A DNA stretch of 64,000 bases from Pseudolabrys sp. (GTDB taxonomy: Bacteria; Pseudomonadota; Alphaproteobacteria; Rhizobiales; Xanthobacteraceae), in assembly GCA_019689975.1 (NCBI GenBank), contig JADGGK010000006.1, positions 1-64,000 on the forward strand, given 5' to 3'. How positions within the stretch are numbered: the stretch's first letter is position 1; each line of letters opens with the position of its first letter. The position numbers and the translations under genes are program-made. A model generated the notes under the pieces. The model made no database searches and was not told the origin of the DNA. It saw only the letters and a program-made list of their open reading frames with translations. Of this stretch, positions 3,239 to 41,362 are shown piece by piece.

Positions 3239-3315
3239 GGGCCCGTAGCTCAATTGGTCAGAGCCGACCGCTCATAACGGTCTGGTTGGAGGTTCGAGCC
3301 CTCCCGGGCCCACCA
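3239..3315 (+). tRNA. tRNA with CAU anticodon, most likely tRNA-Ile2 (k2C)
   Basis: Full cloverleaf: GGGCCCG/CGGGCCC acceptor, GCTC/GAGC D-stem, GACCG-CTCATAA-CGGTC anticodon arm, GGAGG-TTCGAGC-CCTCC T-arm, encoded ACCA end; 77 nt. Confidence 0.95.
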
Positions 3316-21775: not shown

Positions 21776-22771
21776 TCAAACAGTTAGCACGATCTTGCCG
21801 ATGTGGCTGCTGGTCTCCATCAGCTGATGAGCGTCGGCCGCCTCCCTGAGGGCAAAGGTTTTGTAGATCACCGGCTTCACCTTTCCCGCAGCGATCAGCG
21901 GGAGCACGTTCTGTTCGATGGCGCGCGCGATTGCCGCCTTGTCCGTTATCGATCGCGAGCGCAGCGTCGAGCCCGTGTGATGGAGCCGTTTGAGCATGAT
22001 ACGGCGGAAATCAACCGTCGCTTTGGAGCTCCCGAGAAAGGCGATTTGCACAATACGTCCTTCGACTGCCGCGGCTTCGTAGTTGCGCGCAATGTAGTCA
22101 CCGCCCACCATGTCGAGGATCACGTCGGCGCCCTTGTCGGCGGTCGCCGTCTTGACGGCCGCCACGAAGTCCTCGGTTTTGTAGTTGATGGCGATATCGG
22201 CACCGAGCCTGCGGCAGGCTTCACACTTTTCGTCCGATCCTGCGGTGACGACGACGCGAGCGCCAAACGCCTTGCCGAGCTGGATCGCCGTCGTGCCGAT
22301 CCCCGACGAGCCCCCATGGACAAGCAGAGTTTCGCCGCGCTTCAGGCCACCGCGTTCGAACACGTTGTGCCAGACGGTGAAGAAGGTTTCCGGTATCGCC
22401 GCGGCTTCGGTCATCGACAGGCCGGAGGTCGGCAGCGCGTGGTCCGCATGTGCGACGCAATATTCGGCATAGCCTCCGCCGGCGACCAGAGCCATGACGC
22501 GATCACCTGTCTTCCATCGTGTCACGCTGTTGCCGCACGCGACGACCTCACCTGCGACCTCGAGGCCGGGAATGTCCGATGCTCCGGGCGGGGGCGGATA
22601 GAGGCCTTGGCGCTGCATCACGTCGGGCCGATTGACACCCGCGGCCGCGACCTTGATCAAGATTTCGCCCGGCCCGGGTGCAGGAATAGGGCGTCGCTCC
22701 GGCTGCAACATGGCGGGACCGCCGGGCGCCTTGATTCCGATCGCGGTCATGTCGGACGGGAGGCGAGTCAT
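21776..22771 (-). CDS. NAD(P)H quinone oxidoreductase, PIG3 family (zinc-type alcohol dehydrogenase-like)
   Basis: MTRLPSDMTAIGIKAPGGP start at 22771; GVNRPDVMQRQGLYPPPPGASDIPGLEVAGEV; LLVHGGSSGIGTTAIQL. Confidence 0.93.
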   Translation of the reverse strand: MTRLPSDMTAIGIKAPGGPAMLQPERRPIPAPGPGEILIKVAAAGVNRPDVMQRQGLYPPPPGASDIPGLEVAGEVVACGNSVTRWKTGDRVMALVAGGGYAEYCVAHADHALPTSGLSMTEAAAIPETFFTVWHNVFERGGLKRGETLLVHGGSSGIGTTAIQLGKAFGARVVVTAGSDEKCEACRRLGADIAINYKTEDFVAAVKTATADKGADVILDMVGGDYIARNYEAAAVEGRIVQIAFLGSSKATVDFRRIMLKRLHHTGSTLRSRSITDKAAIARAIEQNVLPLIAAGKVKPVIYKTFALREAADAHQLMETSSHIGKIVLTV

Positions 22772-22877
22772 CAGTTCCTCCGCATGGCAAATGAGGCTAA
22801 TAGACGGTGGCGTCTGTTTAGGCGGGCGTCGGCGGCGTGACAACCCAGGGCAACCGACGGCGCCGGGAGGAAGGACG

Positions 22878-23078
22878 ATGCCGGCATTCGACGATGAGGA
22901 CACGCCTAAGAAAAAAGTCGTTCACGAGATCGGGCAGGACCTTACTCTGCTGTCGATCGATGAACTGACCGCCCGCATCGAGCTGCTGCGCGCGGAGATC
23001 AGTCGCCTGGAAGCCGATATCGCCAGCAAGCGCGCCTCGCGCGCGACGGCCGACCAGCTGTTCCGGCGGTCGCGGTGA
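22878..23078 (+). CDS. DUF1192 family protein
   Basis: MPAFDDEDTPKKKVVHEIGQDLTLLSIDELTARIELLRAEISRLEADIASKRASRATADQLFRR. Confidence 0.88.
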   Translation: MPAFDDEDTPKKKVVHEIGQDLTLLSIDELTARIELLRAEISRLEADIASKRASRATADQLFRRSR

Positions 23079-23131
23079 TCGACGATGCCGACATCGAAGG
23101 GAAGCAAAAATTTTTTATTTGCAGTCTTTTT

Positions 23132-23146
23132 TTAAGACCTCGTTAA
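23132..23146 (+). promoter_or_regulatory. CtrA-like full box TTAA-N7-TTAA
   Basis: Direct match TTAA GACCTCG TTAA in an AT-rich intergenic segment, about 25-39 bp upstream of the putative sRNA start. Confidence 0.5.
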
Positions 23147-23170
23147 GCTTTCCGGGTCATTACTGTTATT

Positions 23171-23265
23171 GTCCATCTTCATGGACAGCGAGTGGCTCCT
23201 GTCCACTCTGTTTGACGCCTCCCTGTTATCACCTTCGAGCCGCCGGCAACGGCGGCTCTCTTTTT
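23171..23265 (+). ncRNA. Putative trans-acting small RNA with terminator; possible relative of the suhB/MmgR-type alphaproteobacterial sRNAs
   Basis: Hairpins GTCCAT-CTTC-ATGGAC (23171-23186) and GAGTGG-CTCCTGT-CCACTC (23190-23208), single-stranded TTTGACGCCTCCCTGTTATCACC, then terminator GAGCCGCC-GGCAAC-GGCGGCTC-TCTTTTT. Family assignment is from memory only. Confidence 0.6.
23237..23265 (+). terminator. Rho-independent terminator
   Basis: Perfect 8-bp stem GAGCCGCC/GGCGGCTC, loop GGCAAC, tail TCTTTTT. Confidence 0.88.
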
Positions 23266-23434
23266 GTCCCGTTTTGGGGCAGTCGGCGCCCGCCGGCGAC
23301 GGCATTAAGCTTGATCAATAATTAATTGGCACGCCGAGGCGCGGCCCGTCTGGACACGACGGCCGGCAGCGGTAATGCTGAGGCGACGCCACAATATGGT
23401 TAAGCGTAGGTGTCGCAGCGTTAGGCGTAGCGCG

Positions 23435-23959
23435 ATGTCGGACCAGTTCCGCGACCAGGCCGAGCCAGTCTCATTCGGCGAAAAGCTCGCCAATTCGCAG
23501 GCCTTCGCCGACCTTTTTCGCGAAGGCATGGCACTGGTCGAGGAAACCGCCACCTATCTGGACGGCATCGGTCGACAGGAATGCAAGAAACTCGCGCGTG
23601 CGGCCGCACTTGCCTACGCGACCGAAAGCATGCGGCTGACCACACGCTTGATGCAGCTTGCGTCGTGGCTGCTTCTGCATCGGGCGGTGAAAGAAGGGGA
23701 AATGACGCTTGCTCAGGCGAGCAAGGAAAAAGTCAAGGTCAAGTTATCCTCGCCCGACCTGCATGATAGCCATAACATCGGGCTGTTACCGCCGACATTG
23801 CGCTCTTTGATCGAGCGCTCGCAGACCCTGCAACTAAGGATATGCAGGCTCGATGCCACGATTCACAACACGCGCCTCGTGGCCACGCCTGCGCCCAATC
23901 CCGTCGCGCGCCAGCTTGGATTGTTGAAGGCCGCATTCGACGTCGAAAGCGGCGTCTAA
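23435..23959 (+). CDS. rcdA: DUF1465 family protein, RcdA-like CtrA-proteolysis adaptor
   Basis: Start at ATG 23435. SFGEKLANSQAFADLFREGMALVEETATYLDGIGRQECKKL...YATESMRLTTRLMQLASWLLLHRAVKEGE. Confidence 0.87.
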   Translation: MSDQFRDQAEPVSFGEKLANSQAFADLFREGMALVEETATYLDGIGRQECKKLARAAALAYATESMRLTTRLMQLASWLLLHRAVKEGEMTLAQASKEKVKVKLSSPDLHDSHNIGLLPPTLRSLIERSQTLQLRICRLDATIHNTRLVATPAPNPVARQLGLLKAAFDVESGV

Positions 23960-41202: not shown

Positions 41203-41362
41203 CCGCGGAGCTGCGGGGTGCGTCAGGAGGCTATATCCCCGGGGCCTTATCGATCCTCAAGGGAGCTGTCCCTGACCGAGCTCGTGGGCTCGGACATATG
41301 GCGCCCACCTACTTTCGTAGGGAACCCGGGATCGATGCTCCAACGGCCATCGCGGCTCCGCG
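41203..41362 (+). ncRNA. ssrS: 6S RNA
   Basis: Lies between zapA and 5-FTHF cyclo-ligase, the classic 6S context. Terminal helix GCGGAGCTGCG / CGCGGCTCCGC (one G-U pair), length ~160 nt. Approximate ends. Confidence 0.85.

Follow-up and report, generated by a model that had tools for sequence, protein, structure and literature searches.

A short intergenic region of a Pseudolabrys genome, lying between a DUF1192 gene and rcdA, carries a CtrA-like box followed by a structured segment that could encode a small RNA. Which RNA is this, would CtrA control it, and on which mRNAs might it act? We addressed these questions in a window of 64 kb (the whole stretch of DNA that was analysed, whose numbering is used here) and in related genomes. 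An earlier note on this DNA had proposed an sRNA that is driven by CtrA beside rcdA and has a role within the CtrA circuit.

The RNA itself is already known: it is a member of BjrC1505 (RF02356). cmscan matches window positions 23124-23265 over the full length of the Rfam model (positions 1-140 of 140) at 115.8 bits, over twice the cut-off of 50 (E = 8e-22). The Rfam model starts upstream of the box, its first ~45 positions being promoter; R1, a model of the RNA alone from which the box is excluded, gives 107.4 bits for the sRNA of about 97 nt at 23169-23265 on the forward strand. BjrC1505 is reported to have been verified as an expressed small transcript in B. japonicum. It is present as a single copy in the Pseudolabrys genome, where the predicted transcript is ~97 nt long and ends at 23265. 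PMC7143759 cites the inventory of BjrC RNAs in B. japonicum (Madhugiri et al. 2012). The earlier note had allowed for a known sRNA family, with the box and the rcdA link then as the new part; the catalogued family is RF02356. The family that it named, suhB/MmgR, was the wrong one, as its cut-off is 41 bits where the RNA reaches 23.2, and a separate true suhB is found in the same genome at 73.3 bits.

Folding of the 97 nt yields -39.9 kcal/mol (z = -4.8), a stability that none of 200 shuffles attained. All of its elements lie on the forward strand. Hairpin 1 (23169-23188) shows double changes at 4/4 modelled pairs, and in 101 sequences 96.5% of its cells are paired. Hairpin 2 (23190-23208), GAGUGG-CUCCUGU-CCACUC, holds CUCCU in its loop as a second anti-Shine-Dalgarno-like site and shows double changes at 6/6 pairs (98.9% paired). 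It is followed by the most conserved stretch, GACGCCUCCCUGUUAUC (23214-23230), which includes the unpaired CCUCCC and the proposed seed CCUCCCUGU(U), and by an intrinsic terminator with a 9-bp GC-rich stem and a U run (23237-23265), whose helix 3 has double changes at seven of eight pairs. The unpaired probability is ~1.0 for CCUCCC, the flanks of which are able to form a weak stem, and for UCCU of loop 2. Over the three helices and 101 sequences, 17/18 pairs have changed on both sides and 97.2% of cells are paired, where slid controls reach 41-59%. Fitting the alignment to the model favours the structure, but the gap to the controls and the pair-type changes still count. The best-kept sequence is GACGCCUCCCUGUU, which is retained in distant homologues with a diverged hairpin 2. 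Identity within the 34-nt core is biased among the initial 35 model sequences and among loci found by pattern, as both sets were chosen for an exact core, and free of this bias among loci derived from the R1 model. The two hairpins, the unpaired stretch and the strong terminator of the earlier note were all found where it had placed them, its anti-Shine-Dalgarno-like CCUCC and CUCCU are exposed in the fold, and the sRNA gene that it called is borne out by the RF02356 score and by covariation.

This gene sits in an old neighborhood. The DUF1192 gene (PF06698; 22878-23078, forward strand) is the adjacent upstream neighbor in 81 or more of the 109 loci of a non-redundant set, and rcdA (PF07323/NF051867; 23435-23959, forward strand) the adjacent downstream neighbor in 98/112, window included. 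The protein, previously described as RcdA-like, is a true RcdA, scoring 201.6 bits with the equivalog model NF051867 against a cut-off of 170. Its start is most likely the ATG at 23435, picked by RcdA alignment within the ORF 23375-23959, which places the sRNA about 170 bp ahead of it on the same strand. The conserved neighborhood also includes rpmE, encoding ribosomal protein L31 (24044-24286, reverse strand), and a divergent upstream ORF for a PIG3-type quinone oxidoreductase (21776-22903, reverse strand; TIGR02824, 502.8 bits over residues 52-375), which is kept in most loci and whose true start lies downstream of the first GTG. When loci were gathered by the exact 19-nt core of hairpin 2, rcdA was found in the fetched stretch of 143/148, mostly 150-360 nt downstream; in four of the five others, the stretch stops within about 300 nt. 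Four loci from several families (L156, L165, L166 and L170) keep DUF1192, the sRNA and the box with rcdA not adjacent. On this comparison of loci, the order DUF1192, sRNA, rcdA is ancestral, and some lineages without rcdA downstream still have the RNA and the box. The synteny and covariation that the earlier note had put forward as a check were thus both found. Elsewhere, the window holds a 6S RNA (RF00013, 89.8 bits; 41205-41362) and its sole tRNA gene, tRNA-Met (CAT), at 3239-3315.

The box, TTAA-GACCTCG-TTAA, can be read directly at 23132-23146 on the forward strand, exactly as described before. It is the one exact TTAA-N7-TTAA in the 64 kb window, where 0.05 are expected (the motif is palindromic). 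Among 115 non-redundant promoters of the sRNA, 49 have an exact TTAA-N7-TTAA and 111 have it with at most one mismatch, compared with 1.2 and 12.4 expected from first-order shuffles. Other spacers (N3-N6, N8-N12) stay near background in the 115 upstream regions, with 0-4 exact occurrences and 13-39 with one mismatch. The spacing from box to sRNA is near-constant, and promoters aligned on the box give the consensus TTAAC-N6-TTAA followed at constant distance by an A/T-rich -10. In the window, the predicted -10 element is CATTAC (23158-23163, forward strand), which corresponds to an A/T-rich hexamer that is conserved across 111 aligned promoters, 26-31 nt after the start of the box. TTAAC-N6-TTAA followed by a -10 at a fixed distance is the usual layout of CtrA-activated promoters. 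Together, the box and the -10-like hexamer point to a transcription start at ~23169-23171, and the conserved TTAA-N7-TTAA would then cover the -35 region, a placement that depends on this predicted start. The box matches the CtrA motif, as had been claimed, and from this layout we infer that CtrA binds it and acts as an activator. A CtrA box directly before rcdA is unsupported as a general rule, being found with at most one mismatch in 17/97 sRNA-rcdA segments (4.5 expected). For this reason, the sRNA, and not rcdA, appears to be the better conserved CtrA target at the locus. With an RF02356 match at E = 8e-22, three covarying helices and a box whose conservation spans dozens of families, the observation is confirmed to be beyond chance.

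We then delimited the range of the RNA. RF02356 matches 131/150 genomes of the family, and for the order R1 gives 212/249. Among the named hosts are Bradyrhizobium, Afipia, Tardiphaga, Pseudolabrys, Rhodoplanes, Bosea, Chelatococcus, Microvirga, Phreatobacter, Stappia, Roseibium, Breoghania and Aestuariivirga. Elsewhere in the class many matches are weak, and homologues were counted solely with rcdA or DUF1192 alongside; synteny-confirmed copies occur in well over ten families of other orders. Some copies of these orders fall under the RF02356 cut-off. One family of another order has tandem BjrC1505-type RNAs upstream of rcdA (L168:27-128 and 220-327, from G359; G763:C6:79514-79814). RF02356 has no match in the control genomes, among them Caulobacter vibrioides, the model for CtrA, and Sphingomonas parapaucimobilis has a DUF1465 gene with no BjrC1505-type RNA beside it. 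Within the family itself, four genera (g2, g14, g19 and g41) gave no BjrC1505 match even with the broader model R2, and another (g7) gave a single weak R2 match in one genome. The genomes of these four genera are mostly near-complete and offer natural knock-outs for the transporter hypothesis developed below.

Diverged copies ahead of rcdA were found in S. meliloti CP090106.1, Sinorhizobium sp. K101 and Shinella, with 32-36 bits by R1 and 27-32 bits by RF02356, which is below the cut-off; the S. meliloti copy, at 27 bits, is missed by Rfam. Methylobacterium bullatum scores 50.5. An exact TTAA-N7-TTAA was read in the S. meliloti and Shinella copies, that of the S. meliloti sRNA being TTAACCGCAAATTAA (L251, about 2166-2180). 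A second exact TTAA-N7-TTAA lies nearer rcdA in CP090106.1 (L251, about 2339-2353). CP090106.1, NZ_CP069303.1 and NZ_CP104131.1 are labelled as plasmids, measure 3.5-4.6 Mb and carry rcdA (CP090106.1 also rpmE), and are probably mislabelled chromosomes. In S. meliloti, a CtrA ChIP signal was reported upstream of rcdA, whose mRNA is unresponsive to CtrA depletion (PMC4433202). The sRNA could be the gene that answers to CtrA bound there, and as a CtrA target it offers an explanation of how CtrA can bind upstream of rcdA and leave the rcdA mRNA unchanged. The peak at rcdA is ambiguous, because there are two boxes, one before the sRNA and one nearer rcdA.

We further investigated which mRNAs the RNA could reach by searching the Pseudolabrys genome and its relatives for ACAGGGAGG, the complement of CCUCCCUGU, followed by an ATG after 3-12 nt. 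Solute-binding proteins make up about 36/54 distinct downstream proteins, an approximate count taken from Pfam tallies and sequence clusters, against about 3/41 when GAAGGGAGG and ACAAGGAGG served as control ribosome-binding sites (Fisher p about 2e-9). Four or more kinds are represented among them (Peripla_BP_6, TctC, DctP and NMT1/phosphonate-binding), and by a crude rule signal-peptide-like starts are seen in 39/54 proteins behind ACAGGGAGG versus 9/41 behind the controls. GAAGGGAGG keeps 7/9 complementary bases and yet shows no enrichment of solute-binding proteins, which favors the GU end of the seed, and BjrC1505 over suhB. CCUCCCU is also present in the suhB RNA of Pseudolabrys, and some candidate sites of BjrC1505 could be within reach of suhB as well; the suhB complement is CTAGGGAGG. 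Seven CCTCCCTGTT sites occur in the Pseudolabrys genome: one is sRNA-like (BjrC1505), two are antisense to ribosome-binding sites of solute-binding proteins (on C55 and C185) and four have no ribosome-binding site or terminator. Duplex energies calculated with the full-length RNA did not separate targets from controls. The seed is complementary to many ribosome-binding sites of solute-binding proteins, as in an AbcR- or GcvB-like sRNA; this likeness is one of complementarity alone, a sequence association, and transporter genes may owe their fixed style of ribosome-binding site to another cause. By analogy with AbcR or GcvB, we infer a regulon in which one seed addresses many transporters, with repression by base pairing.

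Taken together, we consider it probable that BjrC1505 is a CtrA-activated, trans-acting anti-Shine-Dalgarno sRNA that acts on transporter mRNAs. The segment 23169-23265, present in one copy, would be transcribed from a promoter of its own and end at its intrinsic terminator. CtrA in its phosphorylated form would activate it by binding TTAA-N7-TTAA across the -35 region, and the sRNA would therefore peak when CtrA peaks. The RNA would leave two sites exposed, CCUCCC within a weak loop and CUCCU within loop 2, and CCUCCCUGU(U) would pair with ACAGGGAGG ribosome-binding sites, mainly those of the periplasmic solute-binding proteins that serve ABC, TRAP and tripartite tricarboxylate transporters. 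Pairing would block translation of these proteins, and nutrient uptake would thus be lowered or reprogrammed in a CtrA-dependent phase. A bolder version, which we put forward tentatively, holds that a CtrA-driven sRNA dating from early Alphaproteobacteria represses many solute-binding proteins through their shared ACAGGGAGG site, that CtrA thereby sets nutrient uptake post-transcriptionally, and that this accounts for the ChIP signal upstream of rcdA without change in rcdA.

Other explanations share part of this evidence. The conserved rcdA link and the CtrA box, together with the precedents of CcnA (PMC8959179) and EcpR1 (PMC4414408), would also suit a BjrC1505 under CtrA whose main job is feedback in the cell-cycle circuit, on the ctrA, gcrA, dnaA or rcdA mRNA. 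This is the kind of role that the earlier note had in mind, and it now looks unlikely: the target evidence instead favors transporter mRNAs, the seed complement being enriched, among the sites searched, at transporter and not at cell-cycle genes, and there are lineages that keep the RNA though rcdA is missing downstream. Such lineages also bear on the idea that the RNA serves mostly as an rcdA leader or attenuator, with CtrA driving rcdA by read-through of the terminator. The shared strand and the distance of about 170 bp to the rcdA start agree with it, as does the rcdA gene of agrobacteria, which has several TSSs and lies downstream of CtrA sites (PMC10469942). However, the terminator is strong, the most conserved bases sit in the RNA core, and L156, L165, L166 and L170 retain DUF1192, sRNA and box without an adjacent rcdA. 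We regard this arrangement as very unlikely, and the simpler concern raised in the earlier note, that the region is only the 5' leader of rcdA, is unlikely in view of the terminator and of these lineages.

The box might serve another regulator, or the RNA might be constitutive, leaving only the trans-acting role at transporters, as for AbcR, MmgR and SorX. The 3' module, which suhB and SorX-type RNAs have in common with BjrC1505 and carry without a box, speaks for this, but it is improbable given a textbook CtrA site, with TTAA-N7-TTAA, a TTAAC consensus and -35 placement, conserved in 111/115 promoters. Hairpin 1 holds an ATG from which a short frame runs in the window, and the conserved element could have been a small ORF, or a decoy for a protein, instead of an antisense RNA. 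Most relatives lack that ATG, and in L128, L129 and L136 one extra nucleotide in the U run breaks the frame with the structure kept. Such 1-nt indels in the core rule out a coding reading, and we find the alternative as a whole hardly credible.

In the literature searched, which did not include the family's original paper, no regulator or function of BjrC1505 was found. What this analysis adds to Rfam is the conservation of the box, the old synteny with rcdA and DUF1192, the range in S. meliloti and other orders, and the proposed seed and targets; the original paper may already mention the box or a neighbor. A near-invariant CtrA box and an old rcdA synteny place BjrC1505 among the best-conserved candidate CtrA-controlled RNAs outside Caulobacter. 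Through this RNA, nutrient uptake may be linked to the cell cycle, and the match to transporter ribosome-binding sites provides a directly and cheaply testable route from one to the other via an sRNA.

Compared with known RNAs, the window RNA is the same as BjrC1505 in sequence, hairpins and terminator, with nothing different in the window itself. Cell-cycle-linked sRNAs offer looser parallels. CcnA of Caulobacter likewise has a promoter box with presumed CtrA activation (PMC8959179); unlike the window RNA, it lies at the replication origin, acts with a CCCC loop on ctrA and gcrA, and has no rcdA synteny. EcpR1 and GspR of S. meliloti are cell-cycle-linked Rhizobiales sRNAs, and EcpR1, beside divK-pleD, differs by its locus, its conserved loop UCCGCCGCAUCU and its stress/ppGpp control (PMC4414408). 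These different loci and loops rule out identity with EcpR1 or CcnA. sRNAs of the AbcR1/2 and GcvB type use one seed against the ribosome-binding sites of many solute-binding protein mRNAs, and to our knowledge CtrA does not drive any of them. The way of working that we propose for BjrC1505 is similar, with no claim of membership by sequence.

Some other RNAs resemble the window RNA at the 3' end. suhB/MmgR (RF00519) shares with the window RNA the module CCUCCCU-(N)ACUU-GCCGCC terminator and the anti-Shine-Dalgarno style, although the Pseudolabrys suhB (73.3 bits) has CCUCCCUAG where the window RNA has CCUCCCUGUU. Membership in SorX (RF02784) and SorY (RF02651) was rejected, the window RNA being unlisted for the former at E up to 10 and scoring 14.9 bits against a cut-off of 111 for the latter. 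Weak class-level R2 matches (about 29-40 bits) were likewise not taken at face value, as L176, L179, L272-L274, L277, L278, L280 and L284 are SorX/suhB-like, have no more than the 3' module in common with BjrC1505, and lie off rcdA and without the box. These loci make up a second sRNA group (CCTACGTCTCCCAGACGTGAAGCCTCCCTGTT-AACTT-terminator; e.g. L274:2501-2591) that is near SorX and suhB yet under their cut-offs. SorX of Rhodobacter sphaeroides, which represses the potA transporter mRNA (PMC9438474), arises from an mRNA 3' end, whereas the window RNA has its own boxed promoter; SorX-like loci carry the CCUCCCUG-type 3' module, as the window RNA does. The second sRNA group suggests an alphaproteobacterial sRNA superfamily with a common CCUCCCUG 3' module.
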